A stretch of 25,076 nt of DNA from a virus (IMGVR_UViG_3300046819_000309:1-25076); one strand, 5' to 3'; positions 3,755 to 22,331 are shown, counted from the stretch's first letter. The notes: a model not told the origin generated them from the sequence alone. Made by a program: numbers and translations.

Positions 3755-3764
3755 TATAAATATT
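3755..3764 (-). promoter_or_regulatory. Recurrent AATATTTATA motif upstream of the 79-residue gene
   Basis: The coding strand reads TAATATTTATATAAG here. The motif overlaps the stop codon of the preceding structural gene and ends 19 nt before the ATG at 3735. The same core occurs in at least four other gaps of this window, at the heads of gene blocks. It is read as a candidate late promoter element or RNA-processing site, with no experimental or database support available here. Confidence 0.4.
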
Positions 3765-5199
3765 AGGTATCAAAACGAATAACGAAATTTAATGGATAAT
3801 CCGGCAAACTTTTAGGTTTTGAAGGGATTTTAGCAACTGCTACCATTTCGTAATTCTCATCATATAAACCAATTGTAGTAACATATGGTGCAAGATATGA
3901 ACCAGTTGGATCCAATGAAGAACTATAATCATATTCATCAAATCCTATTTTAGTAAGTCCATCATAATCAGAAACTATTCTAAAATCCAAATCGTATGCA
4001 CTTCCTGTGTAATCTAATGATGCAGGTTTGAAAGGAATGTATTTTTTAACATATACATCTCCATTATAAAATTTAGTAGCAGATGGATTAGTTGAATAAT
4101 TAAATTCATTAGGAGAAACTTCTAAAAATACTTCGTTTTCATAAATAGTTTTAGTAGATTTAAATTCTACACTATAATTTTTTGAATCAAAATTATAATT
4201 TATTTGCTCAGTTTGTGTATCAGAATATAAATCAGTTTGCCATGTCAATGTTACAATTCCGTTTGCATAGAATATATTTCCTACAACTTTAGGTGAATTG
4301 GTAACTCCTGTTGGTAGATTAAAGTTATCTAATGAGAATAAAACTCCACTTAATAAATCTATACTATCTAATGTAGTTGAAAATGGAGAACTTCCATTAT
4401 AAGTTAATATAATTGAAGGGGAAACATTACTTTCTTCATCACCAAAATCCAAAGAATCAACTCCTAAAATATAATTAAACCCATCATTTGTTAATATTGA
4501 TAAAGTTTCATTTTCAATATCAAATGCATAAGTTTGTAAAAAATCTCTACCCTGATAAACTAAATTATTTTTTCCATCATCGGTAATCTTAGAATAACTA
4601 CCATTACCAGTTAATGTAGAATAATCCGTTAAAACAAATGATTGTGGTTTTATTCCTTCACCTATATATCGCTGAGGAATATTTAAAAACATCAATCTAT
4701 CACTTATACTTCGTTCCTGAACCGATGTATAGTTATTCATAACACCATACATTTTAGTTACATCTGCCCAACTACCTTTTAAAATTTGCCCATTATCATT
4801 TACAATATATTCATTTGCAGTAAGATAATCTGAAAATTCATCAACATATTTTTGAGTAGCATCATCAAAATAATACGAATATGTCTGAGTTGTAGATGTT
4901 GATAAGTTATATGTAGTTACAACATCGTAAGTTGTTTGTTTTTTAGCCTTATGTTTAACAAAATTCCAATTAGATACATATCCAATTAAAGTTAAACCAT
5001 TTGAATAATATAGTTGTTTTAAACTTCTATATAAAGAATATTCATTAAATCCATTTACTTCTATCCCCTCACTATTTTCCCAACTTCCACTTAAATTCCT
5101 AACGACATGAAATGGTAGAGAATTCTCATCAAAATTCCACGATTTATAAGCCTTAAACGGTCTTATCGTAATATCGGATTTAGCTATCGACTTAAACAT
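3763..5199 (-). CDS. Virion structural protein with C-terminal domain shared with the 414-residue protein
   Basis: A 478-residue, Ser/Thr/Tyr/Asn-rich protein with strongly beta-like composition, no signal peptide and no catalytic motif. The C-terminus carries FNYSTNP (366-372) and YVTTIGLYDENYEMVAVAK (439-457). These match FNFSNNP and YITTVGLLNDANELMAVAK at the end of the protein at 5272-6516, so the two share a paralogous C-terminal domain. The copy here has about 45 extra residues between the two motifs. The N-terminus begins with a basic segment followed by YKSWNF and WENSEGIEVNGF. The gene sits alone between a terminator upstream and the recurrent motif downstream, so it can be regulated separately. 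A tail, neck or head-decoration role is likely from position and composition, but the exact role is unknown. Confidence 0.75.
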   Translation of the reverse strand: MFKSIAKSDITIRPFKAYKSWNFDENSLPFHVVRNLSGSWENSEGIEVNGFNEYSLYRSLKQLYYSNGLTLIGYVSNWNFVKHKAKKQTTYDVVTTYNLSTSTTQTYSYYFDDATQKYVDEFSDYLTANEYIVNDNGQILKGSWADVTKMYGVMNNYTSVQERSISDRLMFLNIPQRYIGEGIKPQSFVLTDYSTLTGNGSYSKITDDGKNNLVYQGRDFLQTYAFDIENETLSILTNDGFNYILGVDSLDFGDEESNVSPSIILTYNGSSPFSTTLDSIDLLSGVLFSLDNFNLPTGVTNSPKVVGNIFYANGIVTLTWQTDLYSDTQTEQINYNFDSKNYSVEFKSTKTIYENEVFLEVSPNEFNYSTNPSATKFYNGDVYVKKYIPFKPASLDYTGSAYDLDFRIVSDYDGLTKIGFDEYDYSSSLDPTGSYLAPYVTTIGLYDENYEMVAVAKIPSKPKSLPDYPLNFVIRFDT

Positions 5200-5204
5200 A
5201 CACT

Positions 5205-5213
5205 AATAAATAT
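5205..5213 (-). promoter_or_regulatory. Weaker variant of the recurrent motif (ATATTTATT)
   Basis: The coding strand reads GATATTTATTAGTGT immediately before the ATG at 5199, directly downstream of the terminator. It differs from the AATATTTATA core at its last base, and the leader would be only about 5 nt. If the motif is a promoter, this copy would restart transcription after termination. Confidence 0.25.
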
Positions 5214-5218
5214 CATAA

Positions 5219-5243
5219 TTAAAAAAACCCACCGAAGTGGGTT
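5219..5243 (-). terminator. Rho-independent terminator with UUCG loop
   Basis: On the minus strand a 7-bp stem AACCCAC / GTGGGTT closes a TTCG tetraloop (stem-loop at 5243-5226) and is followed by a run of seven T. The GC-rich stem stands out against the AT-rich surroundings. It lies 28 bp after the stop of the 414-residue gene and 26 bp before the next start, so it ends the transcript of the 7147-5272 block. The plus strand lacks a proper U tract on the other side, so it works in one direction only. Confidence 0.9.
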
Positions 5244-5271
5244 CATTTAAAATTAAGGTTTAGAATTAAAT

Positions 5272-6516
5272 TTAAAAATCAAGTTTTACCTTAATCAACA
5301 CCTCTTTATCAAAGGATTTCGCGATTGGTTGTGAAGTTTTAGCCACAGCCATCAATTCATTTGCATCATTCAATAATCCAACTGTTGTGATATATGTCTT
5401 AGGATCAGTTTCGAATGAAGGTTCTCTAAAAGCACCATCTGAACCACTTACAAAAGTAGGGTTATTAGAGAAGTTAAATTCTCTATTTGTTGCTCTTACG
5501 AAGAAATGTTGTGTAGATACATTTTCAGTTCTTCTTAATTCAAAATCATTTCCACCTTTTAATGCATTATATGCTAATTTGTGGTTATATGTTTCTACTG
5601 ATGGAGTTGATGAAGTTACTGGCAATAATTCACTACCTACTACTGATGCTACCGCAGTTGGATTCAATAACATAATACCCAATTTAGGGTAGAATTTACC
5701 AAATCCTTGTTCGTTAGATGCAGTGTATGTGTTAATAGTTGCTGCTGCTTCAGTTCCTATGTTGTTTGATCCAGAAACAATATTAAATACTGTTCCAGCT
5801 TTTCCAGCTTTATCAGAGAATTTCTTTCCACTATCATCGATAAATGTAAATACTCCGTTTGAACCACTTAAAGTAATAGTTAAATTACCCGCATCTGCTT
5901 GTTGTCTATATCTAGCTCTAGATAAGTTGATAACATATGCATGGTCAATTGAGTATCCATCTTCTACTGATGAAGAATATACTTTGAAAAATTCATCAGC
6001 ATCTCCTTCGTAGTTATCATTTAATAAAATTCTATATTGAGAGTAAATTGCTTTTGTTGGTAATAAAGCAGAATCAGAAGTTGTTAATTGAACTGAACCA
6101 CTTCCGTACTTATGCCCATATGCAATTGCAAATTCAACCGGTGCCGTAGAACCCGTTGCTGAACCTGTCAAATAAACATTCAAATAATACTTAGATGCAT
6201 CTGAACCACTGTGACCAGCAATAGTTGATGTTGAACCAGTAGTCATAGTATTACCTAAACTACCACTTCCATTACTCCATAATCCTTCGGTCACTACTTC
6301 TATTTTATTAGAAATTTTATCAAATTCACCGAATTTTTTAAATATACCTTGTGTTAAAACACCACCACTAGCCACACCAATTTTTTCATTGGTAGGTAGA
6401 GATCCGTTTAATATGTTAGCAATCGCAGTTGAATCAATAACCCCAGCGTTATCAATAAGATATTGGGATAATTGTTGTGTTAATGCTGCTCCTTGTGCTC
6501 CTGTAATTTGTGCCAT
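5272..6516 (-). CDS. Virion structural protein, Ser/Gly/Thr-rich
   Basis: A 414-residue acidic protein with the low-complexity, beta-rich composition of a phage capsid, neck or tail component. The N-terminus is helical (ITGAQGAALTQQLSQYLIDNAG). The middle is rich in Gly, Ser and Thr, with LSRARYRQQADAGN near 205-218. The C-terminal part carries FNFSNNP (347-353) and YITTVGLLNDANELMAVAK (375-393), a module repeated at the end of the next structural protein (3763-5199). No cysteine-based or enzymatic motif is seen. It follows the 204-residue gene after 16 bp, and a strong terminator stands just behind it, an arrangement often seen for abundantly made virion proteins. A tail or fibre-associated role is inference. 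It is not one of the T4 proteins I can name. Confidence 0.8.
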   Translation of the reverse strand: MAQITGAQGAALTQQLSQYLIDNAGVIDSTAIANILNGSLPTNEKIGVASGGVLTQGIFKKFGEFDKISNKIEVVTEGLWSNGSGSLGNTMTTGSTSTIAGHSGSDASKYYLNVYLTGSATGSTAPVEFAIAYGHKYGSGSVQLTTSDSALLPTKAIYSQYRILLNDNYEGDADEFFKVYSSSVEDGYSIDHAYVINLSRARYRQQADAGNLTITLSGSNGVFTFIDDSGKKFSDKAGKAGTVFNIVSGSNNIGTEAAATINTYTASNEQGFGKFYPKLGIMLLNPTAVASVVGSELLPVTSSTPSVETYNHKLAYNALKGGNDFELRRTENVSTQHFFVRATNREFNFSNNPTFVSGSDGAFREPSFETDPKTYITTVGLLNDANELMAVAKTSQPIAKSFDKEVLIKVKLDF

Positions 6517-6532
6517 TTTCTATTAATTATTT

Positions 6533-7147
6533 TTATGCTACATAATTTACTGTCACAGGAATAGAAATTGAACCACCGGTTTCATTTCCATAAACTGTCA
6601 ATGTAGTTACGATTGTAGCGGTTAAAGATGGGTTTGGAATAAACTCAAAAGTTAATCCTCTCTTAACATCTGCCGTTGCAGTAACTTCATCACTAACAGC
6701 TATTTGCCCTGCTGCTGCAATACCTAATCCCACCAAAGTTCCAGCAGTTTTATCTGCTAATACCGCAGTATAACCCGCAGTTGTGTTTCCGTTTGGAGAA
6801 GTTGTAGGTGTGATAGTAACTTTACCTCTTGTTTGGTTGGTACTGATGGTTGTTACACCAATTGATACCTGAGGTATTTTAGTTGTTCCCTTTGGTAGGG
6901 TAACAAGTTTGTATTTTAAAACTTGTGTTTCATCCGGAGATGCTTCTAAAATAGGGATAGCTTTGATAGCTGCATCATAATACGCAGAACCCTTTGGGTG
7001 TGCTGCATCGTATAATTGATAATCAATTTCATCATCACCCAATGCAAATTGTGTAATGTTTAATGATTGTCCAGCTGCCAACTTTTCTCTACCCTTCTTT
7101 GTAAGAATAGCATCAACAATGATTTCGGAATTATCTAAGTATGCCAT
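6533..7147 (-). CDS. Phage structural protein of the ILTKKGRE family
   Basis: A 204-residue protein whose N-terminus (EIIVDAILTKKGREKLA at 8-24, then FALGDDEIDYQLYD at 34-47) is a signature I recognise from uncharacterised virion proteins of marine and environmental myoviruses. Residues 75-204 are beta-rich, with repeated Thr/Val strands and a final SISIPVTVNYV that reads like a small Ig-like or BACON-like sandwich. No enzymatic residues are evident. The leader is long for this genome (69 bp) and carries two copies of the recurrent AATATTTATA motif, then an A-rich stretch right before the ATG and no Shine-Dalgarno. It starts a short unit of two structural genes that ends at the UUCG terminator. 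The strong leader and terminator suggest high late expression. Its exact place in the virion is unknown. Confidence 0.82.
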   Translation of the reverse strand: MAYLDNSEIIVDAILTKKGREKLAAGQSLNITQFALGDDEIDYQLYDAAHPKGSAYYDAAIKAIPILEASPDETQVLKYKLVTLPKGTTKIPQVSIGVTTISTNQTRGKVTITPTTSPNGNTTAGYTAVLADKTAGTLVGLGIAAAGQIAVSDEVTATADVKRGLTFEFIPNPSLTATIVTTLTVYGNETGGSISIPVTVNYVA

Positions 7148-7177
7148 TTTTTGTTGTTTATTTTTTTATTGGTCTTA

Positions 7178-7187
7178 TATAAATATA
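7178..7187 (-). promoter_or_regulatory. Recurrent motif copy upstream of the 204-residue gene (proximal)
   Basis: The coding strand reads TATATTTATATAAGACC. It ends 30 nt before the ATG at 7147 and shares TATTTATATAAG with the copy at 3755-3764. It lies in a 69-bp gap that also holds a second copy. Confidence 0.4.
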
Positions 7188-7201
7188 TGTTCTTTTAGTT
7201 T

Positions 7202-7211
7202 TATAAATATT
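7202..7211 (-). promoter_or_regulatory. Recurrent motif copy upstream of the 204-residue gene (distal)
   Basis: The coding strand reads AATATTTATAAAACTAA, starting 5 nt after the stop of the 1660-residue gene and about 54 nt before the next ATG. With the proximal copy it forms a tandem pair about 24 bp apart. Confidence 0.4.
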
Positions 7212-7216
7212 TTCGG

Positions 7217-10200
7217 TTAATCTACCTCCAATATTGGTTCTCCACTACCTCTACCAGCAGGAGATACTCTTAATCTATTAGGGTTAGTTACAAATACTTC
7301 AACCGGAGATGTACCATCTAATGTAGTTAAAGATGTTTGCTTAGACCCAATAAAGAAACTATTTTCTAATCCTCTACTCGTATCTTTGGTATTTCTATAA
7401 TGTCCGCTAGTATATCCATCAAATACTTCTATATTTGTTATAACTCCCGCTCCATAACGATATGAACCTAATGCAATCACAATATCACTATAAAAACTAT
7501 GTGCAGTAGGTGTTTTGAATGTTCCATTCTCTATTGGGTCAATTAATATAAGTTTTTTCTCATATCTATAAACTTTTTCTACACCCAATTTATCATCTGC
7601 TCCTAATTTACTAGTTCTATATAAAGATCCAGAACCATTTGCAGGAATTCTATAAGGAACATTTCTACTATATCTAATTGTTATTATATAAGCATTTTTT
7701 CTTTCAGTTAATACTAATGTACCGTCTTCTCTGAAATATGTTCTATCTAAAGCTCCATTTTCTCCAAATAATCCAAAACCTTTGTTAAATGGAGAATCCA
7801 TATCATTTCCAACTGCTTGATAAGAATCCTCTAAATCATATTCTCCTATAATAGAAGGGTCTTTTAATCCAGCATCTATTATAATTTCAATTCCACCCAT
7901 AGTAGAACCAGAATTATATGTAATATCACTCATTACCATATTATCCGTTACTATTGTTGTGCTAGATGTTAGGTATGAATATTCAGAAGATACGACAGTT
8001 AAATCATCTACACTATAACTAGAAGTATAGAAATGTACCCCAGCTTCCAAATCTTTATTAGTATCCAATACCAAACTACTTGTGTAATATGGAACATCGG
8101 TTACTAAAGCTCTATGTTGAGTTGTATCTATCGATGAAGAATGATATATGTTTTGACCAGTAGGTTTTGTTATTTTTATCTTACTTCTATCTAAAATAGA
8201 TGGCTCAATTAATAATCCTTTTGATACATTAGCTCTCGCAGGTATTACCTGATCCAACATATCAAATAGAGATTTATCTATTGATTTTACAAGTCTTATA
8301 TATTCATCAAAATTTAAGTTTGTTCTTTGGAAATAATAATTTCTAAGACCAATTAATTCTGAATAGTTATCAGTTCCATATTCATCTCCCCAATCTCCTA
8401 TATAATCACCTATATTAATAGCACCCAATGAACGAAGAATATCCAAATTCAATTCTTTAACAGGTGAGAAAAATAATCCTAATCTATTAGAATCTATCGG
8501 TGCTCTATCAAACGCTTTTTTAGTTGCTCTTTGTTTATATGATAATGTACCATTTAAAGTAATATCTTCTAATCTAACTTTATCTCTTCCAATAAATCCA
8601 ATCGATGGAATCTCTGCCGTTACAAATCTTTCATATACCTCATATTGATATGGATATGTAGATATGTTTGTACTCATACTTGCAGTTGCCGAAACAATTG
8701 AACCCGTAATCGGTGCCACATTCTTTATAGAAGTTGCTGAATATAAATTTTTAGGATACTCAAAATCTAATCTAACTAATAAGTTATCAGTCGATGAATG
8801 TACATTATTACCACTAATAACATCAGGATTTAAAGTATGTGATGTAATTGCAGATGATGATAATGCAGAATTCCACATTCTAAATTCATCCACCGAACCA
8901 CTTATACCATTTGATCCAGAACCATTTATTATAATTGTTCCTTGCTCAGTCCATGGTATATTAGTATAGAATGTACTACCTTCAAATAATGAATTTGAAG
9001 ATGATACTTGCATAGTTAATGATGCACTCTTATTTAGAATAAGTCTATCATCAACTGCTTCTTTAACATATAAAGTATATACATCATAATCTAAACTATC
9101 AGCAGTAGTTCTTTCTCTTTGAATAGTAATATGTTTAAAATCACCATCAAATAATGGAATATTTTCTATACTAACACTACTAGTGAAAGATGAAGTTGTA
9201 GAAGTTAATCCGTTTAGATATACCTTTTTATCAGAAACTATATCAAATACTACATTTCCGAACTTAGCACTACCAGTTGGTTCAATATAAACATTCCAAT
9301 AATAAGAACCCGCTTTTCCTCTTAATAATTGAGAAGTTTGTTTATTTATTGTATTAAATCTAAGTTGAACTGAATCTGGTGAAGATGAACCCGTAATCCA
9401 CGGAAGTGTAATATATTCCGTAGGAGATACATTAAGCATAGCAGTTCTATCTTCGTATGTATATTTGTTTAATTCAGATGGATTGCTCGAAGGCCCTCCA
9501 AACTCTACAATTGATAATAATGAAGATGGAACTCCATAACATGCTAATATAGCATTTATAGATTTTCTTGTACCTTTATGTTTTAATAAGTATGGTAAGT
9601 TATTAAGTATTCTTCTCCAAACTTGATTTCTAGCCTCTTCTGGAGTATATCCAGCAGATACATTATTTCCTAATGAATTATTATTCGTTGGAGTAGAACC
9701 ATCTTTATTTAAACCAAATGCATACTGCCATAATTCTTGCCCACTAAATGGTTGTTTAGGATCCCATCCAAATGATTCCAATAATTCATATACCAATTTA
9801 TCGGATATACCATCTACCGCTTTATTCTCTACTTTTCTAACTCTATTAATACCATTGATGTATGACCACACTATATCAAAGTGTTGTCCAATCATTTCTA
9901 AGAAAGTTAAATATTCTAAGTTAGATGAATCTTCTTTTATAAATTCAGGAACATGCTTAACTAAATAATTCTTATTATCCACATCATACAATTCAGCAAC
10001 TGATGATTGTGAAACAAAGAACATATGATTTGAAGATGTGATGTTATAATTATTATACATCGTTTTTTCAAATCCATCGAATCCATTTCTAACAGCATTT
10101 ATTTTATCATTATATGATGCACTTGTCACCAATGATATAGATGATGTTGATAATAAAGATGCTGAATATAAAGTTGTTGTAAGTTTATCTTCCCAACTCT

Positions 10201-12199
10201 CAATTGTTTCTATTTTGTATTGAAAGTTTTCTAACCTAGTCTGAGCACTACCAAAATTTACAAAGTTTTCAAACTTTAAAAAATAAGTTGAATATACATC
10301 ACTTCCACTCGTATATTCAATATTTAAATTATCTAAATTAAAAGAACTTTGAGAAATATATCTATTAACAATATCAGTAGATGTAAGAGAACCACTTGAT
10401 ACAATTTCATCAAAAAATTGTAATCCAGTTTCATTTACAACATCGGTTGCAAAATTAGGTTTTAGTATAAGACATTTATCATCATCCTCATCGGTAATAA
10501 TAATAGATTCTACAATAGTAGGAATTATCTGCTTTGAAATCCAAACTTGTGTGTTTAAATCTATGTTAGCAGGAAGTGGTTCTAATAATTTAACAACTAA
10601 TGAACCATAACTCTGATATCCTTTTTTCTTTCTAGTACTGCCGGTTTGAGTATCTACTTCAAATTGGGTTTCAACAACTTTATCATTGAATACTGAAAAG
10701 GTTAATGTATCCATTGCAGTATTAGTAATAACAAATGATTGGTCACCACCTGTTCTTACTTGATAATATAAGTGTTTATCATCTTCAAACTTAATTTCAT
10801 CTTCGTATAAATTCTTAGAATCATTGCCTGAAAATAACTGAGAGAATACGCCAGAAATATCTCTTAATGCCTGATTAGTAGGTATTAAGAATTTTGTTCT
10901 CTTTACTGTCGTAGTTACACTCTCTCTTTTACCTAATATCTTTCCGCTTATTCCGTTAAAATATGGTTGGAAACTAAATGTTATTTCATAAGTTTCAGCC
11001 GTTTCATTAAAATAAGATTTATATAATTCATATAATTCCTTAGCATTGTAATAAACATTAGCCTTATTATTTTGTACCGATATATCGGTTATTTTATTTT
11101 CACCTAAATAAACATGAATACCTTCCGCATTTACGGATTGTAAAGTAAAATCAAATTTAAAATCTAATGGTCTTAAATCTGCTTCAACTATATTTCTATC
11201 ATAAATTATTTGAGTAACATCGGGTTCTCCGTAAGTTTTTTCTTTTAGAACTTCAATAAATGTTCTAATTTCAGCTTGATCACCAACTACATCATTTCCA
11301 GCAAATACAACCAATTCATATCTACCTACTGCATTTGGATTATTAAGTTCAATTAAAGCCTCTCCGTTTGTAGTAGAAATCTTTTTTGAACCATTACCTT
11401 CTGCTCCACTTTGATTTGGAAAATAGTATCTAACATATGTAGTGGAGTTAGTAACACCTAATCTTAATTGAAATTTATTAGTTAATTCTAAATTCCAAGC
11501 ATATGCCTGTTTTAATTGAGTTGTAAAATTAGGAAAACTATCTGGAGTATAAACATCATAACTATCCACTACGATAGTATATTCTCTATCTACTACCGGA
11601 ATATCAAATGTATTAGAAGTTGTTTCTTTTATAACTACACCATTTTCATCTAAGATTTTAATACTTCTGATGTTGTATTGTTTTCCATCGGCTCTTACAA
11701 TTGATATTTTAGAATCTTTTTCAACTGTTACAAATTCTTGATTCACAACAACTACTTCTCTTTGTCCATTTCTCGGTCTATCAGATAATAGTTTTATAGA
11801 ACCTTTTCCTAATGTATTTTGAACTCTTACCGATACATAATTTGGCTCGGATGGAGGTCTATTAGTTAATACATCAGCTACACTTAATTGTGCAAAAGGA
11901 ACATTTATTACAAAATTAATTTCATTTGCCGGAGGTACAAAATAATCTCTATGAATTATTTCTCCGGGAACAATTGGATTAGTTTGAGTAGTTGAATATT
12001 TTAATGCATCAAAAGGTGTTGCAAATTGTGAATTATCACCTGCACTTTTTCCTTTTAAATCAGTTATTTGTTGAAATGAATCGGGTGTAGATATACCACC
12101 TCCTCCACCATCTGCATTTTGGATAATAGCCATACCTTCTGAGTTTGTTGATACTCTTCTATTTCCATCTAATATATCATCTAAAGGTGCTATCGCCAT
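7217..12199 (-). CDS. Giant tail/baseplate protein with P2 gpI-like core and LamG-like lectin domain
   Basis: At 1660 residues this is the longest gene here. Residues 1-450 are Ig-like and beta-rich after a GGGGG linker at 31-35. Residues 750-900 are helical and contain LPYLLKHKGTRKSINAILACYG (868-889), which resembles the core of P2 gpI-type tail proteins. Residues about 925-1130 look like a concanavalin A/LamG domain, ending in SGSVDEFRMWNSALSSSAI, a typical final strand. Residues 1295-1345 contain IDKSLFDMLDQVIPARANV and LLIEPSILDR, seen in related phage tail proteins. The C-terminus is beta-rich. Its position after gp6 matches T4 gp7 (about 1030 residues), so a baseplate-wedge or baseplate-periphery role with glycan binding is likely, but I cannot claim gp7 homology. 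The gene stands alone, with a recurrent motif 13 nt before its ATG. Confidence 0.85.
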   Translation of the reverse strand: MAIAPLDDILDGNRRVSTNSEGMAIIQNADGGGGGISTPDSFQQITDLKGKSAGDNSQFATPFDALKYSTTQTNPIVPGEIIHRDYFVPPANEINFVINVPFAQLSVADVLTNRPPSEPNYVSVRVQNTLGKGSIKLLSDRPRNGQREVVVVNQEFVTVEKDSKISIVRADGKQYNIRSIKILDENGVVIKETTSNTFDIPVVDREYTIVVDSYDVYTPDSFPNFTTQLKQAYAWNLELTNKFQLRLGVTNSTTYVRYYFPNQSGAEGNGSKKISTTNGEALIELNNPNAVGRYELVVFAGNDVVGDQAEIRTFIEVLKEKTYGEPDVTQIIYDRNIVEADLRPLDFKFDFTLQSVNAEGIHVYLGENKITDISVQNNKANVYYNAKELYELYKSYFNETAETYEITFSFQPYFNGISGKILGKRESVTTTVKRTKFLIPTNQALRDISGVFSQLFSGNDSKNLYEDEIKFEDDKHLYYQVRTGGDQSFVITNTAMDTLTFSVFNDKVVETQFEVDTQTGSTRKKKGYQSYGSLVVKLLEPLPANIDLNTQVWISKQIIPTIVESIIITDEDDDKCLILKPNFATDVVNETGLQFFDEIVSSGSLTSTDIVNRYISQSSFNLDNLNIEYTSGSDVYSTYFLKFENFVNFGSAQTRLENFQYKIETIESWEDKLTTTLYSASLLSTSSISLVTSASYNDKINAVRNGFDGFEKTMYNNYNITSSNHMFFVSQSSVAELYDVDNKNYLVKHVPEFIKEDSSNLEYLTFLEMIGQHFDIVWSYINGINRVRKVENKAVDGISDKLVYELLESFGWDPKQPFSGQELWQYAFGLNKDGSTPTNNNSLGNNVSAGYTPEEARNQVWRRILNNLPYLLKHKGTRKSINAILACYGVPSSLLSIVEFGGPSSNPSELNKYTYEDRTAMLNVSPTEYITLPWITGSSSPDSVQLRFNTINKQTSQLLRGKAGSYYWNVYIEPTGSAKFGNVVFDIVSDKKVYLNGLTSTTSSFTSSVSIENIPLFDGDFKHITIQRERTTADSLDYDVYTLYVKEAVDDRLILNKSASLTMQVSSSNSLFEGSTFYTNIPWTEQGTIIINGSGSNGISGSVDEFRMWNSALSSSAITSHTLNPDVISGNNVHSSTDNLLVRLDFEYPKNLYSATSIKNVAPITGSIVSATASMSTNISTYPYQYEVYERFVTAEIPSIGFIGRDKVRLEDITLNGTLSYKQRATKKAFDRAPIDSNRLGLFFSPVKELNLDILRSLGAINIGDYIGDWGDEYGTDNYSELIGLRNYYFQRTNLNFDEYIRLVKSIDKSLFDMLDQVIPARANVSKGLLIEPSILDRSKIKITKPTGQNIYHSSSIDTTQHRALVTDVPYYTSSLVLDTNKDLEAGVHFYTSSYSVDDLTVVSSEYSYLTSSTTIVTDNMVMSDITYNSGSTMGGIEIIIDAGLKDPSIIGEYDLEDSYQAVGNDMDSPFNKGFGLFGENGALDRTYFREDGTLVLTERKNAYIITIRYSRNVPYRIPANGSGSLYRTSKLGADDKLGVEKVYRYEKKLILIDPIENGTFKTPTAHSFYSDIVIALGSYRYGAGVITNIEVFDGYTSGHYRNTKDTSRGLENSFFIGSKQTSLTTLDGTSPVEVFVTNPNRLRVSPAGRGSGEPILEVD

Positions 12200-12212: not shown

Positions 12213-12222
12213 TATAAATATT
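12213..12222 (-). promoter_or_regulatory. Recurrent motif copy upstream of the 1660-residue gene
   Basis: The coding strand reads TTAATATTTATAAGAAATAG, with the core ending 13 nt before the ATG at 12199. The gap between the flanking genes is only 25 bp, and this motif fills much of it. Confidence 0.4.
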
Positions 12223-14158: not shown

Positions 14159-14168
14159 AATTTATATT

Positions 14169-15179
14169 TTACCCCCAATTAGTACCTCTTTGTTTTTGAA
14201 CCGCAGTTGATAATGCTATTGTTCCATTTTTAGATTTAAATTCTAATGTACCGGTATATTCTTTATCTCCGGTGAAACCAAATCCAGCAGATGGTGAGAA
14301 ATCATCTACCTTTCCTGCATTATGAGTAAATGAAATTGTTTTCTTTTCTTGCGGTTGAACACTTACTGAGAATGGGCCGTTTAAGAAACTTATATTTTTT
14401 TCAGTTATAGTTACATTTTGAACTTCCAATGAAAAGTTAAATATTTCAACTTCAGGACCATTTATCCAACTACCATTTCCATCATCCTTAGCTCTAGCTC
14501 TATATGTTAAATCGTTATATCGTTGATCACCTTTATTGATAACTCTAACTGTTATATCTGCACCAGATTTTGCACCTTCTGCAATTCTAGCATTTTTACC
14601 ATTTAATTGTTCGGTTAAACTATCTACTTGCTTTTTAAGAGATTCAATTGTTGCATTTTGACCTTCATTTCTAGCTCTTAAAGATGAGTTTTCAATACCT
14701 TCATTTGTTGTTCTCTGAATATTACTTTGTAAGGTATCGGTTAATATGGTAAATTGAGTTCTAAGAGTTTCTGCACTTGATTCAGCGGTTACTCTTAATA
14801 ATCTTTCACTATCTAATTCTATATCCAATGCTGCCGAAATAGCAGTTAATGTAGCAACCTCTGCTTGTAAATTTGAAATTTGTATTGATTGTGAAGCAAT
14901 TGTACCATTTGCCAATTCTAATGAACGAGTAGCTTCATTATAGATAGGTCTCGGTATTAAATCTAAATCAGTTTCAGGTGATGATGGTATTAACTCAAAT
15001 ACATTTACATCAATAGCCTTTTTTAACTCATCTACATTATATACTCTTTTTTTCGATGGAGCATATACAAATCCAGTCTTATCTTGATCAGCAGTTGCTT
15101 CAAAATAAATTGTATCTCTATCCCTTGCGGCTAGAGATCCACTAGTTTGTAAATCTTTTTTAATCAACTCGAACTCCAT
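14169..15179 (-). CDS. Coiled-coil virion protein with C-terminal beta-sandwich
   Basis: A 336-residue protein in three parts. Residues 1-80 form a small mixed domain (TIYFEATADQDKTGFVYAPS). Residues about 95-200 form a long heptad-patterned helix (ISNLQAEVATLTAI, ESLKKQVDSLTEQLNGK). Residues 207-336 are a beta-rich, Ig-like domain (ITVRVINKG, FNFSLEVQNVTITEKNISF, GPFSVSVQPQEKKTISF). A parallel trimeric coil with a globular tip is the classic short-fibre plan, so a baseplate-attached fibre is plausible. The start lies inside the preceding DNRLRE-like gene (20-bp overlap), so translation is coupled, and the next gene starts 10 bp after the stop. It has no recognised T4 homologue by sequence and no enzyme motif. 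Confidence 0.75.
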   Translation of the reverse strand: MEFELIKKDLQTSGSLAARDRDTIYFEATADQDKTGFVYAPSKKRVYNVDELKKAIDVNVFELIPSSPETDLDLIPRPIYNEATRSLELANGTIASQSIQISNLQAEVATLTAISAALDIELDSERLLRVTAESSAETLRTQFTILTDTLQSNIQRTTNEGIENSSLRARNEGQNATIESLKKQVDSLTEQLNGKNARIAEGAKSGADITVRVINKGDQRYNDLTYRARAKDDGNGSWINGPEVEIFNFSLEVQNVTITEKNISFLNGPFSVSVQPQEKKTISFTHNAGKVDDFSPSAGFGFTGDKEYTGTLEFKSKNGTIALSTAVQKQRGTNWG

Positions 15180-16161
15180 TGCTTCTTATTTCAAATGTTA
15201 AATCATCTTCAAAGTATTCTTCAAACCCATCTCTTTCAATTAAAAATAATAGTCTATATACTCTATTCTTAGGGAAATTCGTTGTATCAAATACTAAGTA
15301 ATTTCCAGATGAATTACAATTTATCTTACTATAAGTAGAAAAATCTATAATTTTCTTCTTAGTAATTTCATCTCTAATAGCATAATAAGAACTAGTTGGA
15401 AGATAATTTACATCTAAATAAGAGAATGAATTAGAAAAAGTTTTAGTAGGATATTGTTCTCTACCGATTACTCTAACTTTAACCTTTCCACCTTCGTAGT
15501 ATGCAGGTTTTAATTCTTTACTCTTTACTGTTATTACTGATGCAGTTAATGCATTTAATGAACCCGTTGAAAATGAACCAGATGTATCATCCCATCCTAA
15601 TTTTAATAAAGGCTGATTTATAGTATTAGTTTCTCTTGAGTAGAAATTCATAATACCATAATCCAATGATGATGATTCTACTGATATGCTATGCTTTAAA
15701 ACTAATCCATAATTAGCAGAACTTGTCCAATAATCATAGATGTTCTTTATGTTCATTTCAACATCTAAACTCTGATATGTAAATATCTGAGAACCGCTTA
15801 CTGATGAAGTGTTAAATCCTGGTTGAGTATTCCAGCTTATACCATCGTTTGTTGAAGGAGTATAATGAAAAGTTCCTATACCCATATTCCAATTACTTTC
15901 GGTAACAGGATATGAATAAAGAGAAAAACTAACTGGCATTTCTTCTGCTTCAGTTAATTTTAAACACATTGTAGCAGATGAAGCCGTTACATAAGAAGGA
16001 ATGTTAGTTGTATCAAATTGTATGAATACTCTTGCATCATCTTTTTCAGCAAAACGAGAATAGTGTTTAGATACCGTCAATATTTCATCTAAACCAGTAT
16101 TCTTAGTTTTATATAGAGTATAAACTGTTGCATCTTTTGATGCGGTTACAAAATGTATCAT
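15160..16161 (-). CDS. DNRLRE-like beta-domain virion protein
   Basis: A 333-residue protein. Residues 1-190 read like a DNRLRE/disaggregatase-related beta-sandwich: DATVYTLYKTKNTGLDEILTVSK near 10-32 (the NTG..E.L pattern), then RVFIQFDTTNIPS near 44-56 (the R.l..FD motif), then ATMCLKL. The fold is known from surface and carbohydrate-binding proteins and from phage virions. The C-terminal third (VKVRVIGREQYPTKTF, VYRLLFLIERDG) is a second beta domain. No catalytic residues are evident, so binding rather than hydrolysis is likely. Its ATG shares one base with the gp6 stop (TAATG), which places it within the baseplate operon directly after gp6. A tail-peripheral adhesin-like role, or an internal baseplate role, is inference. 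Confidence 0.72.
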   Translation of the reverse strand: MIHFVTASKDATVYTLYKTKNTGLDEILTVSKHYSRFAEKDDARVFIQFDTTNIPSYVTASSATMCLKLTEAEEMPVSFSLYSYPVTESNWNMGIGTFHYTPSTNDGISWNTQPGFNTSSVSGSQIFTYQSLDVEMNIKNIYDYWTSSANYGLVLKHSISVESSSLDYGIMNFYSRETNTINQPLLKLGWDDTSGSFSTGSLNALTASVITVKSKELKPAYYEGGKVKVRVIGREQYPTKTFSNSFSYLDVNYLPTSSYYAIRDEITKKKIIDFSTYSKINCNSSGNYLVFDTTNFPKNRVYRLLFLIERDGFEEYFEDDLTFEIRSNGVRVD

Positions 16162-18203
16162 TATATTGCTCTTCCTTTAATATCTTTATCAGGAAACTTA
16201 ACTTCAAAGATAGATGGATCCAATGATGGATAAATTATCTTATTCTTTGTAGCACCCTTAATATCGTAACTATTTCGTGCATATGAACCTCCACACTTAT
16301 TAACTATTTCCAAATTCTGAATAGAAGCAACTCCTTCTACCATAGCAAGTGATAATTCTATATCCGATAAATTTATCGTTTGATTGAATTGCCAATTTTC
16401 TATTGCAAAGAAATTTTTCATTTCTTCAATACATCTTAACACAACTTCTCTTGTGTTAAAATTTTTATAAACTGTTATATCAAAATTAACTCCAATATTA
16501 ATAATAAATCCATCTATTATATTGACACCATCAGTAAGCATTCTAAATTCATTTAAATATGTTTTTAGATTTTCTTTTACAGCTCTATTCAAAGGTGTTA
16601 AATTTCCATTAGAATCATAACCTAATGTGTATAGATTAATTGCAAATGGATTAACTAATTCTGCACTTTGAGTTGTTTTTTTAACAAACTCTCTTACATT
16701 TTGTTTCATCTCATTTGTAGTAGGTAATTTACCTCCTTTAGCTAATGCAGAATTTACTATGCTTCTTGTTAATTCAGCAAATTCAGTTATATTATCAGTT
16801 TGATTTAAAATAGCTTCAGGTGAGTTTGCATTTAATGAATTATCACCGATTGCAAAAACTTTAGATACCGAACCATACTTAGTTGGCATTGATAAAGCTC
16901 TAACTTGATAATCTTTAGCAGTTACCGCTCTATTTTGAGATGCGTAATTAGCTAAAGCCGTTTCTCTGATTTCTTCTATCGTATCAATACCTCTACCACC
17001 TTTTGCAGGTATTTCATTTTCAACTGCAACTGATTGTTTAGCAAATTGATAAACTGCTGCATCCAATGATTCAAATGTATCAATCAAATCATCATCATAC
17101 GAAATAGATGTAATTGTTGTTAAATCTCCTTGTGGAACATTTGAACTAACTCCACCTCCTACTAAATAAGTAACTGTAAGAGTACTATTAGCAGATGGGG
17201 ATTGTCCGTATGTTTTTGTTTTTAAGAAATTAGTAGGGTCATATGATTCACCCATTCTATCGATTGAATTATTCAATCCCAATCCTACATTTTTAAGGTT
17301 TGGAATAAGTAATTCATCTGATAAAGAACTATCTCCTCCACCAAATTGAATAGATGTAGTAAAATCATCATTTGTTCTTACTACGAATCTTCTAGATGTT
17401 TTTAATAATTTTAAAATATAAGGGACAGTTGCACCAAATTGATATAAATCCGGATCATTTTGCTCAGCATTAGGATAATCTATATAAATGGTTTCCTGTG
17501 CCAAATAAGGAACTTCATACCATTTATTTCCATTATCATCAACTATACTATCAATTGCAACTACATCGGTTTCACTTAAACTTATAGTTTGAAATGATTC
17601 AGCAGTTGTAAATGTTTTTTCAAAAGTTTTTAATGTAGCTGATATTGCCTGAATTTTCTTTTTTACTAAGAAATAATCAGGAACATTAGTAAGAGGGGTT
17701 GTACTATAAACAGTCACCTCTCTATCAGTTGGGTCGTTAAAATCTAATACTTCAGTTGTTCTAAATGTTATATCAGTATTACTACTTGATTTTACCGATA
17801 ATCCTTCATTTATTCTAAGTAAATATTTTGTATCCAATTCACCTGCTGCGGTAGCTTTACATAATTGATAAACCGATAAAGTGGTAATGGCAGGTGAAGT
17901 TGGTTTTGGTCTATATCCTAATAAACCAGCTAATGCAAATACATTCTTTTCTTCACTTGCATATTGAATAAGGCTTTCTCTTAATGAAGTATCAGTATAA
18001 TATCCCAATACATCTCCTATATAAGATGCCATTTCAATGAACATCATACCAGGTGATGTTTCATTAAAATCATTGTATGAGTTTGGGAAATAGGTTTTAG
18101 CATATTCAACCAGATTATCTCTGAATGAATCGAAATCCTTACCTAAGTAGGATATATCTCTACTATTTCTACCAATTTTCTTATTTGTTACTTTAAATGC
18201 CAT
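16161..18203 (-). CDS. gp6: Baseplate wedge protein gp6 (Baseplate_J family)
   Basis: A 680-residue baseplate wedge protein. T4 gp6 is about 660 residues and forms the ring that joins the wedges around the hub. The N-terminal region is very characteristic: SRDISYLGKDFDSFRDNLVEYAK (14-36), YFPNSYNDFNETSPGMMFIEMASYIGD (38-64), then QYASEEKNVFALAGLLGYRPKPTSPA. Later segments fit Baseplate_J: the NRAVTAKDYQVRAL type helix, NLKTYLNEFRMLTDGVNI, and an INIGVNFDITV strand. It is coupled by 1-bp TAATG overlaps to gp25 upstream and to the DNRLRE-like gene downstream. Adjacent gp25 and gp6 genes match what is known of contractile-tail phages and related injection systems. This is the firmest anchor for calling the window a myovirus tail cluster. 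Confidence 0.97.
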   Translation of the reverse strand: MAFKVTNKKIGRNSRDISYLGKDFDSFRDNLVEYAKTYFPNSYNDFNETSPGMMFIEMASYIGDVLGYYTDTSLRESLIQYASEEKNVFALAGLLGYRPKPTSPAITTLSVYQLCKATAAGELDTKYLLRINEGLSVKSSSNTDITFRTTEVLDFNDPTDREVTVYSTTPLTNVPDYFLVKKKIQAISATLKTFEKTFTTAESFQTISLSETDVVAIDSIVDDNGNKWYEVPYLAQETIYIDYPNAEQNDPDLYQFGATVPYILKLLKTSRRFVVRTNDDFTTSIQFGGGDSSLSDELLIPNLKNVGLGLNNSIDRMGESYDPTNFLKTKTYGQSPSANSTLTVTYLVGGGVSSNVPQGDLTTITSISYDDDLIDTFESLDAAVYQFAKQSVAVENEIPAKGGRGIDTIEEIRETALANYASQNRAVTAKDYQVRALSMPTKYGSVSKVFAIGDNSLNANSPEAILNQTDNITEFAELTRSIVNSALAKGGKLPTTNEMKQNVREFVKKTTQSAELVNPFAINLYTLGYDSNGNLTPLNRAVKENLKTYLNEFRMLTDGVNIIDGFIINIGVNFDITVYKNFNTREVVLRCIEEMKNFFAIENWQFNQTINLSDIELSLAMVEGVASIQNLEIVNKCGGSYARNSYDIKGATKNKIIYPSLDPSIFEVKFPDKDIKGRAI

Positions 18204-18634
18204 TATTCTACTACATTAAATGTTATTGATTCTAAATTTTGTTGCCCCATAACTCTAAATGATAACGAAACTACAAAAGAATATCTATCTCTATTAGTAT
18301 TTGATTGATCAACTAATATCTCTTCAATAGATATAAACGGCATCCATTCTGCCACCGAAGATTCAATAGAACTTTGTATTTCCAATTCTAATGCATCGGT
18401 ATTTTGATTAAAAAGAGAATCATATAACGATGTACCAAATGTAGGATGCATCAATCTCTCTCCCTTTCTAGTCAAAAGTAGATTTTTTAAATTAGATTTA
18501 ATTTGGTCAATAGTTTGGAACGATTGGTTAAAATACCCAGTAGTACCCCTTTGTAAAGGAAGTGTTACCCCAATAGCTACTCTATCTTTTTCGGGTAAAT
18601 CTTTAACTAACTTAGGTCCAACTAATATTGCCAT
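18203..18634 (-). CDS. gp25: Baseplate wedge protein gp25-like
   Basis: A 143-residue protein, close to T4 gp25 (132 residues) and to the gp25/TssE family of contractile injection systems, which trigger sheath polymerisation on the baseplate. The hallmark is NLLLTRKGERLMHPTFGTSL (residues 52-71): the helix ending in TRKGER, then the MHPTFG turn. It is followed by ELEIQSSIESSVAEWMPFI and the closing beta strands RYSFVVSLSFRV and ESITFNV. It shares single bases with the 149-residue gene before and gp6 after (TAATG at both ends), so the three products are made in step. Nothing is truncated, and the start is fixed by the overlap. Confidence 0.95.
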   Translation of the reverse strand: MAILVGPKLVKDLPEKDRVAIGVTLPLQRGTTGYFNQSFQTIDQIKSNLKNLLLTRKGERLMHPTFGTSLYDSLFNQNTDALELEIQSSIESSVAEWMPFISIEEILVDQSNTNRDRYSFVVSLSFRVMGQQNLESITFNVVE

Positions 18635-19083
18635 TATCTATTTTTATCTTTACTTGCTGCTAAAACTTTTGCACTTCTTGCAATTGCTTTATCTATTAAC
18701 TCATTTCCAGTTGATACTGAATCTATTGGTGATTGCATACCCATCTGAGGATTACCATAACCTATCATATCAGGTGTAATAGTTCCCCATTCTCCATCAG
18801 TTCTAGAGAAATTAGCTCTCATAGAAGTTTCGTTTAGAATTTGGTTTAATACTGGATTTTGGGTATATACCTTCTCTTCCGTATGTCTTTCCTCATCTAA
18901 CATAGATAATGCCCTCTCAAATGGATCTTGTGTTTTTTGAACCATTTGTTTAGGTTGAGTAGTTGTTTTTTTCATTTCAGATAAGATTTCCTTTCTTACC
19001 TGCTCTTTAATCGCCGCGGTTTCTTTCTTAACCTCTTCTTTTACGATGATTTGAATTGCTTTAAAAAGTTTGTTAGTGTCCAT
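18634..19083 (-). CDS. Small coiled-coil structural protein preceding gp25
   Basis: A 149-residue protein. Residues 1-40 form a charged amphipathic helix (FKAIQIIVKEEVKKETAAIKEQVRKEIL), then a Lys/Gln/Thr linker and a second helical part with DPFERALSMLDEER. The centre is extended (DGEWGTITPDMIGYGNPQMG), and ELIDKAIARSAKVLAASK closes the chain. Similar small coiled-coil proteins sit in front of gp25 in other environmental T4-like phages, to my recollection. An assembly or chaperone role is possible but unproven. AAAAGGA lies 7 nt upstream of the ATG, the best Shine-Dalgarno-like site in the window, and a recurrent AATATTTATA motif lies 17 nt upstream, so this gene heads the baseplate-wedge block. 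It joins gp25 by a 1-bp TAATG overlap. Confidence 0.75.
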   Translation of the reverse strand: MDTNKLFKAIQIIVKEEVKKETAAIKEQVRKEILSEMKKTTTQPKQMVQKTQDPFERALSMLDEERHTEEKVYTQNPVLNQILNETSMRANFSRTDGEWGTITPDMIGYGNPQMGMQSPIDSVSTGNELIDKAIARSAKVLAASKDKNR

Positions 19084-19100
19084 AATAATCCTTTTGTAAG

Positions 19101-19110
19101 TATAAATATT
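19101..19110 (-). promoter_or_regulatory. Recurrent motif copy at the head of the baseplate-wedge block
   Basis: The coding strand reads CTAAATATTTATACTTACAAAAGGATT. The core ends 17 nt before the ATG at 19083, in a 53-bp gap after the GH19-bearing gene. No terminator-like hairpin is visible in this gap, so upstream transcripts may read through. Confidence 0.4.
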
Positions 19111-19136
19111 TAGATTTGATATTTGATAAAATATAT

Positions 19137-20633
19137 TTAGTTTCCGAAACTCAACGATGTTGAAGCTCCAGCTTTAGCCATTGCCATTTTTTGTTCATCT
19201 GCTATAAATTTCCTAGAATACACATCTACCTTAGACAATCCTTCTTGTACCACAAACCCGCTTGAACTTCTACTTAATAATCTTTCTCCTGCCACCGAGC
19301 TCACTACATATAAATTAGCATCCGCTTGAGTCATATTTGGGTCATTTATCCCATTATATTTTCTACCATCTTTTTTAATCATTTTAGGTAGTCTAAGATT
19401 CATCAACCAAGCGGCCGCTTTTCCGGATCCATCTGGTGTATTTACCAATTCAGGTTGATTGATAAATCGTTTATCTCCGTATCCTGCTAAAGAAGCTGCT
19501 TCATATCCACTACGACCTGTAAGTTGAACTAATCCTCTCCCTCTATATTTCATTGCATCACCAGGTTGAGTATTTCCAAGTCCCATTCCACTATCTTTTC
19601 CATATACAACATCCGCAAAAGCACTAACATTTTTCTTTAGTGCAGTTAATTGGTCAGGAGTATATTTAGCAACCCTTTTTCCAAATATAGCATAAATTCT
19701 ATCGTTATCCGTTGTAGAATAATTTATATTTTCATTTAGATAATTACCACCAGATTCTTTCATAACTGTCGATTTAACTGCTATGATTACTGTTCTACTT
19801 GTAATACCACTCTCAATTAGAGCCTTTTCTAAAGCATCCAATCTTTCTTTAACACTTCCACCATCAGCAGCTGCTAAGTTTGTATCATCAGCCGCTGGAG
19901 CCGAAGCAGCTGCCGCAGCTGCCGCATCTGCCGCCGCTTTTGCAGCATCTGCTAATAATTGACCTTTAGCCGCTAATTCCGCTGGATCAACTAATCCGGT
20001 AAATTTATTTTTAAGAGAGTTAAGATATTCTGGATTTGTACTAAATAAATCCTCATATGCAATTCCTAAATCAACTGGATTACTATTTACCGAAAATCCA
20101 GCCCATGGAATAAATCCAGGTGCTAATGTTCCAGGAGGATATAATGATGTTGTTATACAAAACCCCTGTATAGTAGTTAAGTGTGCGTTTGCCGCTAATA
20201 TTAACTTATCTATAAATCCATCTACATTATCTAACCCTTCATATGTAAAAGGAAATGATACTTGTAATCCAGGATTTGATACTGAGTTTTGTGTTATAGC
20301 AACATTACCAGTTGATCCTGGTGCTGGCATTAATGGAGTGAATAGTTTTTGTAAAGTACCAAATCCCCAATAAGCAATAAATCCGTTTGCAATTCCATTT
20401 ATAATTGGTAACTGTTCAGTTGATTGGGATTGTTGTAATAATACCAACCTAATTGCATTTTCTAATAATTGAACATTACCAATCTCTACCGGATTTTTAT
20501 TCATCAAATCACCTGCCGGCGGTGCTTTTACAGTAGCATCATAAGATACTGCAATAACTTTAGCTAGGTCATCTAAAGAAGGTGGCCCAGATTCCATTAC
20601 TTTTTTTACACTAAATTTGAAATTATCCCACAT
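19137..20633 (-). CDS. Hub protein with C-terminal GH19 chitinase/lysozyme-like domain
   Basis: A 498-residue two-part protein. Residues 1-200 form a virion-type domain (MWDNFKFSVKKVMESGPPS, FTYEGLDNVDGFIDKL) with no enzyme motif, followed by an alanine-rich linker at about 221-248. The C-terminal 250 residues look like GH19: MKESGG with Glu293 as candidate general acid, ENINYS (301-306), KYRGRGLVQLTGRSGY (362-377, the family hallmark) and a later SGKAAAWLM helix. In phages GH19 domains cleave peptidoglycan. Placed next to the hub spike, it should bore the cell wall during injection, doing the job of the lysozyme domain fused inside T4 gp5. No signal peptide or holin lies nearby, which argues against a free endolysin. 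It follows the spike gene by 5 bp. Confidence 0.87.
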   Translation of the reverse strand: MWDNFKFSVKKVMESGPPSLDDLAKVIAVSYDATVKAPPAGDLMNKNPVEIGNVQLLENAIRLVLLQQSQSTEQLPIINGIANGFIAYWGFGTLQKLFTPLMPAPGSTGNVAITQNSVSNPGLQVSFPFTYEGLDNVDGFIDKLILAANAHLTTIQGFCITTSLYPPGTLAPGFIPWAGFSVNSNPVDLGIAYEDLFSTNPEYLNSLKNKFTGLVDPAELAAKGQLLADAAKAAADAAAAAAASAPAADDTNLAAADGGSVKERLDALEKALIESGITSRTVIIAVKSTVMKESGGNYLNENINYSTTDNDRIYAIFGKRVAKYTPDQLTALKKNVSAFADVVYGKDSGMGLGNTQPGDAMKYRGRGLVQLTGRSGYEAASLAGYGDKRFINQPELVNTPDGSGKAAAWLMNLRLPKMIKKDGRKYNGINDPNMTQADANLYVVSSVAGERLLSRSSSGFVVQEGLSKVDVYSRKFIADEQKMAMAKAGASTSLSFGN

Positions 20634-20638
20634 CTATA

Positions 20639-21880
20639 TTAGAATTGAATCTTTACATTTTGAGATACTACACTATTTAAACTAGCCGCTAATTCTAATA
20701 ATTTATTTTCTCTAATCGGATCCATTCCAGATGTTGGACCAGCAGGAGTTAATAATCCTCCATTTTTTAAATTTATGATTTCACTTATTAAATCTGCTAA
20801 TATTTTAGTTAATGCTAATCCATCTACGGCAGGTTTTAAGTTTTTACTTCCTAAATTTATTTCACCGGAATCACCTATATAAAAGTTAATTTGTTTATCA
20901 AATGCTTGAATATCAACATTTCCTTTTGAATTTATGTTGATACCTTTATCAGTATCAATTGTGAATATACCATCCGTTATTACACCATAATTTCCTTTAC
21001 TCCAAAAAATCATTTCATTTTTTCGAGATGAAAAAACTAATCTATCGGATGTTATGAAACATTGTTCTCCATTATATTTTTTTGGAAATGCTTCAAATGC
21101 CACATCATTTGCAGCACCTGAGAAAATGAATTTAGAAGATTTATCGGGTCTTGTTTTGAAGTCAGAACCTCCTAATAAATCAGGAGTACCAGGAACAAAG
21201 TTTATGTTATTCTTATCACCACTTGTTAATAAAATAGTAGAACCATCATTATTGATATCCTCTCTTATAGCCATACCTTCAGGTAAAACTGAATTCTTAG
21301 CAGATTCTCCATTTCTAATGGTAATAGTAGGAGCAAAATCATTACTCTTATTATTATATCCACTAAAACGAATACTCTGACCGTGTCTGGATTGTATTAA
21401 GGTATCTCCTTCAAATATTTTTAATCTATGTATTTTTTGTTTAGAAAAGTAATCACCCAAACTTGCACCACCAATTGCCGCTAATGCACCTCCTAATGAT
21501 TTAAAATTATTTAAACCTGTGGATGGATTTCCTGCCGTAGCTGCTCCTGCCGGTACTTCTGAATTATTTATTGTTTTATTGAAATTGTATCTTCTATACA
21601 TAGGTATAGTACCATTGTATATGATATCAACAAATTCATTTACAAGTGGTAAATCAATAAAATGCTCATCATATGGATATGCAATTATAGTGTTGTTCAT
21701 ATTTTTACCAACCGATTCAACCTCAATTGCTCCAGGAAGTATAGTTCTTCCATTGGATTGAGTTCCAAAATCTAAATAAATTTTCTTAACAACACCATGT
21801 ACAACTCCACTATTACCCGAAGAGTTTTTGGTGGTCTTAGGATTTACTTGATAATCATCTCTAAACGAAAATATTCCCAT
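20639..21880 (-). CDS. Baseplate hub spike, gp5/VgrG-like (OB-fold plus beta-rich tail)
   Basis: A 413-residue protein. Residues 25-100 read as an OB-fold barrel (VVHGVVKKIYLDFG, GAIEVESVG, VNEFVDIIYNG). The hallmark is IHRLKIFEGDTLIQSRHGQSIRFSGY (150-175), the EGD...SR.G.SIR phrase shared by hub spikes of T4-like environmental phages. Residues 250-346 form a run of short strands (KFIFSGA, RLVFSSRKNEMIFWS, GININSKGNVDIQAFDKQINFYIGDSGEINLGS), as in the triple-stranded beta-helix of T4 gp5C or VgrG. The C-terminus is helical. Unlike T4 gp5 there is no lysozyme insert. That function is carried by the GH19 gene 5 bp downstream. The start is coupled by TAATG to the coiled-coil gene before it. Confidence 0.85.
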   Translation of the reverse strand: MGIFSFRDDYQVNPKTTKNSSGNSGVVHGVVKKIYLDFGTQSNGRTILPGAIEVESVGKNMNNTIIAYPYDEHFIDLPLVNEFVDIIYNGTIPMYRRYNFNKTINNSEVPAGAATAGNPSTGLNNFKSLGGALAAIGGASLGDYFSKQKIHRLKIFEGDTLIQSRHGQSIRFSGYNNKSNDFAPTITIRNGESAKNSVLPEGMAIREDINNDGSTILLTSGDKNNINFVPGTPDLLGGSDFKTRPDKSSKFIFSGAANDVAFEAFPKKYNGEQCFITSDRLVFSSRKNEMIFWSKGNYGVITDGIFTIDTDKGININSKGNVDIQAFDKQINFYIGDSGEINLGSKNLKPAVDGLALTKILADLISEIINLKNGGLLTPAGPTSGMDPIRENKLLELAASLNSVVSQNVKIQF

Positions 21881-22308
21881 TATTTTCTTTTTTCTAATTT
21901 ATCCTGAATTTCTTGTAACTCCAATTCTATATCATCAACCTTTTCTTTTGTATGTTTCTCCATTTCATCAGCAACACTCTTAACTTCTTCTAATAATTGA
22001 GCTCTTTCTGCTTCTGATAAGAATCCATCATCAGTTGGGCCTTTCATTTCTGCTGCGGTTATTCTTTGCGCAATAGTTGCCAATCTTATAAGCAAATCAT
22101 CATTCTCTACTGAGAACTTAACCAAATCTTTAATAATAGGTCCAACTTCTGCTATATCTCCTGCATGACGAATTGATTTTTTGAATTCTTCAATCAAATC
22201 ACCTATCTTTTGTTTCTTACTTCTTTGATTTGTATAAATTTCCTGAAATAAGTCTGATAACTTCTTTTCACCAAATAATACGAAATCTACTGCTGTCTGC
22301 TTTGCCAT
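21880..22308 (-). CDS. Coiled-coil tail-assembly candidate preceding the hub spike
   Basis: A 142-residue, almost entirely helical and charged protein. GEKKLSDLFQEIYTNQRSKKQKIGDLIEEF (13-42) and VKSVADEMEKHTKEKVDDIELELQEI (110-135) have heptad-like periodicity. PTDDGFLSEAERAQLLEEV lies between the helices. No membrane segment or enzyme motif is seen. The gene heads the hub block, overlaps the spike gene by 1 bp (TAATG), and is preceded by a variant of the recurrent motif with no Shine-Dalgarno sequence. Small helical proteins in this position are often hub-assembly or tape-measure-chaperone factors, but I recognise no named family, so the role is inferred from context only. Confidence 0.75.
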   Translation of the reverse strand: MAKQTAVDFVLFGEKKLSDLFQEIYTNQRSKKQKIGDLIEEFKKSIRHAGDIAEVGPIIKDLVKFSVENDDLLIRLATIAQRITAAEMKGPTDDGFLSEAERAQLLEEVKSVADEMEKHTKEKVDDIELELQEIQDKLEKRK

Positions 22309-22321
22309 AATAATAAATCTA

Positions 22322-22331
22322 TATAAATAAA
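22322..22331 (-). promoter_or_regulatory. Recurrent motif variant at the head of the hub block
   Basis: The coding strand reads CGTATTTATTTATATAGATTTATT, containing TTATTTATA and ending 13 nt before the ATG at 22308. It shares TTTATATAG with the TTTATATAAG seen at 3755 and 7178. The 41-bp gap separates the enzyme cassette from the hub genes. Confidence 0.35.

Follow-up and report, generated by a model that had tools for sequence, protein, structure and literature searches.

The window, by which we mean the whole 25,076-nt stretch of DNA analyzed here (virus record IMGVR_UViG_3300046819_000309), is a fragment in which all called genes lie on the minus strand. Its gene content includes baseplate wedge genes (gp6-like and gp25-like), an endolysin-like gene, a primase gene and the start of a thymidylate synthase gene. 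An auxiliary gene at 24256-25074, beside the structural block, matches a Nol-like carbamoyltransferase (phrog_1601). Megablast returned no match for the window among phage records; judging by protein matches, it belongs with Flavobacterium phage immuto and Microcystis phage Mel-JY01. At least 80 relatives of the window are present in IMG/VR. Far-T4 is the published name for distant T4 relatives, including RM378, and we apply it here to the group of myoviruses to which the window belongs.

The first-pass annotation listed six positions of a recurrent core motif, described it as confined to intergenic gaps shortly before start codons, and placed it at the heads of gene blocks. The 8-mer TATTTATA indeed occurs exactly six times in the window, at precisely these positions and on the coding (minus) strand [Table 1]. 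All six copies fall within the 361 nt of non-coding DNA, with none in genes and none on the other strand. The exact copies lie ~13 to 54 nt before a start, and the distance is 5 nt for a weaker form of the motif. The longer AATATTTATA is present at four of the six copies, and a terminator scan detected the pairing of a terminator with ATATTTAT at 5243-5221/5213-5205. Two of the copies form a tandem pair with a spacing of 24 nt, both before one gene. The location at block heads is likewise supported, with a promoter as its best explanation.

Table 1. Motif copies and associated features in the window, and members of a sigma-like protein family in relatives (window coordinates unless a record is named)
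Feature	Position	Strand	Description
TATTTATA	22322-22329	minus	Candidate late promoter element, block 22308-19137; T precedes the core where extended AATATTTATA has A
TATTTATA	19101-19108	minus	Candidate late promoter element, baseplate block 19083-12225 (gp25-like, gp6-like); extended AATATTTATA
TATTTATA	12213-12220	minus	Candidate late promoter element, 1660-aa gene 12199-7217; extended AATATTTATA
TATTTATA	7202-7209	minus	Upstream member of tandem pair before gene 7147-6533; extended AATATTTATA
TATTTATA	7178-7185	minus	Downstream member of tandem pair before gene 7147-6533
TATTTATA	3755-3762	minus	Candidate late promoter element before gene 3735-3496; extended AATATTTATA
ATATTTATT, weak form	5205-5213	minus	5 nt before start at 5199, right after terminator
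Intrinsic terminator AACCCACTTCGGTGGGTTTTTTT	5221-5243	minus	Between block ending 5272 and gene starting 5199
Sigma-like family members	immuto35A_152 L101:18130-18828; L062:1567-2292; RM378 17032-17826		Unnamed in current annotation

In total, TATTTATA is no more frequent in the window than expected (6 copies versus 9.2 expected on both strands), and the non-random feature is the placement of the copies. Within the window gaps, six copies compare with 0.43 on average, and with 5 at most, in 5000 dinucleotide-preserving shuffles. The gaps of 66 dereplicated relatives hold 143 copies of ATATTTAT and 126 of TATTTATA, versus 8.6 and 9.0 expected under a trinucleotide model, and an unbiased ranking of 8-mers in the same 66 relatives puts these two first. 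Hence, the frequency in gaps relative to AT content, a check that the first-pass annotation had named, is above expectation both in the shuffles and under the trinucleotide model. Moreover, ATATTTAT/TATTTATA are far the commonest of the 56 A3T5 8-mers in the gaps of 115 dereplicated relatives, where the runner-up A3T5 permutations are overlapping versions of the same motif. As a control of the method, the same ranking puts the known late promoter TATAAATA first in T4; the procedure thus recovers a known late promoter. In coding sequence, TATTTATA is seemingly rare across the 115 loci (77 copies versus a median of 170 for the permutations, with codon effects uncontrolled), which possibly reflects avoidance of false promoters.

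Relatives share descent, so that site counts are not independent. The conservation of the motif before individual genes was therefore scanned gene by gene, in the 60 nt upstream of those orthologues whose N-terminus aligned with that of the window protein. The motif is kept before 153 of 158 orthologues of three motif-headed window genes: 51 of 56 for the gene starting at 22308, all 78 for the gene starting at 19083 (median protein identity 34%) and 24 of 24 for gene 7147-6533. It precedes none of the 499 orthologues of window genes that lack an exact copy. The genes starting at 12199 (no orthologue passed the N-terminal filter) and 3735 (no orthologues) were left out. No other single result is as strong: the motif stays before particular genes despite divergence of the proteins and is absent inside blocks. 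Its conservation at 34% identity argues against mere inheritance.

Alignment of 270 sites gives the extended consensus ATATTTATA. An A directly precedes the core in 96% of these sites, and the start codon mostly lies 15-29 nt after the core with a peak at 21-23 nt; start distances at T4 late sites are similar. No strongly conserved upstream element or -35 box is seen in the 270 sites. Of 257 sites, 43 have a terminator hairpin in the 70 nt upstream, versus 11 of 228 control gaps; these counts include related contigs and are not fully independent. At immuto positions 120553, 131252 and 145302, TATTTATAAATA palindromes allow the element to be read from either strand of one and the same site.

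The core had also been described as the reverse complement of the T4 late promoter, and a differently oriented late signal had been considered. The first part is true of TATTTATA and TATAAATA, but the reading as a reversed T4 late signal is not supported: the flanks are asymmetric and face the gene, and on the same strand the two boxes differ only at positions 4-5. A same-strand variant of TATAAATA with two changes describes TATTTATA better than a reversed copy does. TATAAATA itself is depleted in the gaps of the 66 dereplicated relatives (5 versus 19 expected) and occurs 0 times in the window gaps. On account of this depletion, the T4 motif on the coding strand was ruled out as the signal.

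TATTTATA sites precede genes for the sheath, baseplate hub, head-tail adaptor, terminase, portal and tape measure. In immuto, a site is found before 8 of 21 structural genes versus 16 of 211 other genes (Fisher P=3e-4). Some motif-headed genes have an unknown function, and 13 of the 21 immuto structural genes have no site of their own. In the complete genome of Mel-JY01, the 8-mer ranking returns ATATTTAT (18 versus 2.6 expected), although one part of this genome taken alone looked motif-poor. A 50-kb part of LR756508 has a single copy. In the Rhodothermus phage RM378 (NC_004735; 42.5% GC), the top upstream 8-mer is TTATTTAA (23 versus 1.2 expected), positioned mostly 6-17 nt before the start codon genome-wide, and the RM378 version of the motif is TATTTAAA. 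Here, sites also precede both genes of divergent pairs and follow terminators. The core TATTTA is shared on the same coding strand, which favors a same-strand relation to TATAAATA over a reversed one. Phages infecting Flavobacterium, Rhodothermus and, as reported, Microcystis have this core in common.

A second class of putative promoters, which serves as an internal control, was found in the same phages. TTG lies exactly 23 nt upstream of TATATTTG at 13 of 13 sites in a 168-kb relative and at 42 of 48 sites in the loci, and exactly 23 nt upstream of TATATTTAGG at 15 of 15 sites in immuto. Of the TATTTATA sites, 0-10% per set (~2% of 232) carry TTG at this distance, versus 80-100% for TATATTTG/TATATTTAGG. 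The flavobacterial sigma-A -7 box is known to be TAnnTTTG (PMC9723704). The TATTTATA class resembles the Bacteroidota sigma-A promoter (TTTG ... TAnnTTTG) in having an AT-rich box upstream of the start, whereas the TTG 23 nt upstream and the TTTG end of the box are both missing from it. Host-type sites cluster where small ORFs lie and ahead of helicase and primase genes, and this class is probably early and read by the host polymerase. It is located at 0-40 kb in record G001 and at 60-76 kb in immuto.

With these features computed (the motif and its orientation, conservation, position, placement at block heads, absence of TTG and structural linkage), we read TATTTATA as a predicted late promoter of the T4 type, i.e., an 8-bp -10-like element without a -35 and with a new consensus. 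We assign this reading a probability of roughly 0.78. Considered separately, the sites are very likely to be promoters and likely to be of the late class.

Which protein would recognize such a box? Near the baseplate genes, relatives of the window encode a sigma-like family of about 230-260 aa. The window stops short of the position expected for this gene, and the protein is seen only in relatives. Of 14 records searched, 11 contain a member, RM378 among them; no match was obtained in T4 and two incomplete contigs. The gp55 family phrog_234 matches the sigma-like protein in immuto only (E=0.008), and comparison of the family with gp55 by hhalign gives E=0.0016 with a probability of 16%, or E=0.046 and 1% with a deeper but less diverse alignment. 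Pfam Sigma70_r2 matches the family in one genome (E=0.001), and searching for gp55 with phrog_12791 gave no Far-T4 match. Sequence searches of PHROGs, Pfam and PDB with the family returned weak and mixed matches, sub-threshold for PHROGs and Pfam. Overall, the sequence links to sigma factors are weak but consistent.

Structure prediction adds to this picture. In an AlphaFold2 model of the protein (pLDDT 77.8), residues ~18-125 match sigma region 2; the matches listed are essentially all sigma factors, with a best Z of 6.8. All structural Z values stay below 8, and values of this size can also occur with helical bundles. The last 94 residues fold confidently (pLDDT 90.9) as a C-terminal helix-turn-helix-like domain without a clear relative, for which sigma region 4 ties with unrelated folds such as SRP and homeodomains. 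The gp33 profile PF16805 was found only in T4, without a Far-T4 match; a diverged or fused equivalent is possible. Apart from T4 itself, only one Far-T4 record (G011) gave a match to the T4-type sliding clamp (phrog_223).

In several genomes a host-type promoter is followed by a small gene and then by the sigma-like gene. The promoter scan upstream of the latter also returned some patterns inside coding sequence, and only clean gap cases were used. The order in immuto is an early site before gene 76200, the sigma-like gene at 78130 and the next gene at 78862 with a TATTTATA site. The small gene, at L051:3749-4015 and at the equivalent place in about 17 other loci, encodes about 80-95 aa with a hydrophobic N-terminus and a conserved SFESDDEVG-like motif; its product is a possible partner or regulator. 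RM378 encodes a second, conventional sigma factor (Rm378p144, 128329-128928) besides the sigma-like protein.

Gene position and the modeled fold suggest, on balance, that the sigma-like protein is the reader of TATTTATA. We put forward only tentatively that it acts as a single-chain late sigma, in which region 2 and the C-terminal HTH recognize TATTTATA without gp33. A review remarks on the absence of a fused late sigma among T4 relatives (PMC2988020); a single-chain reader, if real, would be that kind of protein.

From the anatomy of the sites and from comparison we infer promoter activity, timing, start-site position and recognition by the reader, and the following model can be outlined. Early in infection, host polymerase and its main sigma factor would read the host-type promoters (TTG-N20-TATATTTG), which in some genomes head an operon with the phage ~240-aa sigma-like protein. 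This protein would bind the host core polymerase and bring it to TATTTATA, with no -35 element involved. From a start a few nucleotides downstream of the box, the leaders would be about 10-25 nt long, and the mostly structural genes would be transcribed in blocks, one per site. Given the short distances in RM378, its late messages may be nearly leaderless.

Other readings of the same sites have to be weighed. The box could be a promoter read by host polymerase with a host sigma factor, perhaps together with a phage activator (cf. T4 middle promoters), with the sigma-like protein otherwise employed. The box is AT-rich like host -7 elements, the sigma-like protein is no more than a candidate reader, and in RM378 the conventional sigma factor Rm378p144 could take this role. 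However, the TATTTATA sites are without the TTG that host-type promoters of the same genomes hold at 23 nt, no other conserved upstream box is present, and one core across Flavobacterium, Rhodothermus and reported Microcystis phages fits a phage-borne reader. We regard recognition by host sigma as unlikely.

Very unlikely, in our view, is a role in translation, where an AU-rich leader element would aid ribosomes without Shine-Dalgarno sites. The peaked distance to the start codon and the often only 6-17 nt in RM378 would suit such an element, as would the lack of Shine-Dalgarno sequences in Bacteroidota, which rely on A-rich positions upstream of the start (PMC6847099). Nevertheless, none of the 499 within-block orthologues, which also need translation, carries the element, and terminators just upstream of many sites mean that a new transcript must start there. 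The known Flavobacterium translation determinants are, moreover, single adenines at -3, -6 and -12/-13 and not an 8-mer (PMC6847099).

The first-pass annotation had raised a new signal that is either a promoter or an RNA-processing site. The promoter half of that proposal is supported. Cutting of longer transcripts at UAUUUAUA ahead of each block would also fit the block-head location, but cutting of a long precursor clashes with the terminators that often lie just upstream and with the sites before both genes of the RM378 divergent pairs. No known nuclease with such a target is invoked, and processing is highly improbable. An artefact of AT-rich gaps has negligible probability: the gaps are 85% AT and the window as a whole shows no excess of copies, yet AT bias as the cause of the motif is ruled out by shuffles and permutations, with composition-preserving models giving 0.43 and about 9 against the 6 and 126 seen, same-letter permutations far rarer in the 115 loci, gene-specific conservation before orthologues and the core recurring in RM378 at 42.5% GC.

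Returning to the late-promoter reading, the T4 late promoter TATAAATA is recognized by gp55 together with gp33 and the gp45 sliding clamp, the latter linking late transcription to replication. The likeness comprises an 8-bp AT-only box near the start codon that has no -35 and heads structural blocks, and a phage-encoded sigma-like protein. The Far-T4 system differs in its box, TATTTATA, with T4's TATAAATA depleted; in the absence of a detected gp33 and the presence of a T4-type clamp in one record only; and in its sigma-like protein, which is longer than gp55, only weakly related to it and equipped with an extra HTH-like C-terminal domain. The predicted late promoters of KVP40, 44RR, S-PM2 and Aeh1 are highly similar to the T4 consensus, and the Aeh1 box is altered only at -13/-12 (PMC2988020). 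As in the Far-T4 phages, these are in silico consensus boxes upstream of late genes, whereas the Far-T4 change lies mid-box and the clade is more distant.

Far-T4 phages reportedly occur widely in aquatic environments; T4 core genes tied to transcription regulation were not detected in them (PMC4360716). A limited literature search found no earlier description of TATTTATA or of Far-T4 or Flavobacterium phage promoters, and the late promoter of this widespread group has apparently not been described previously. The cultured phage immuto makes in vitro testing simple. Together with its candidate reader, a late promoter shared across the clade would provide a testable map of Far-T4 transcription units and would show how the recognition sequence of a T4-type late system can shift.
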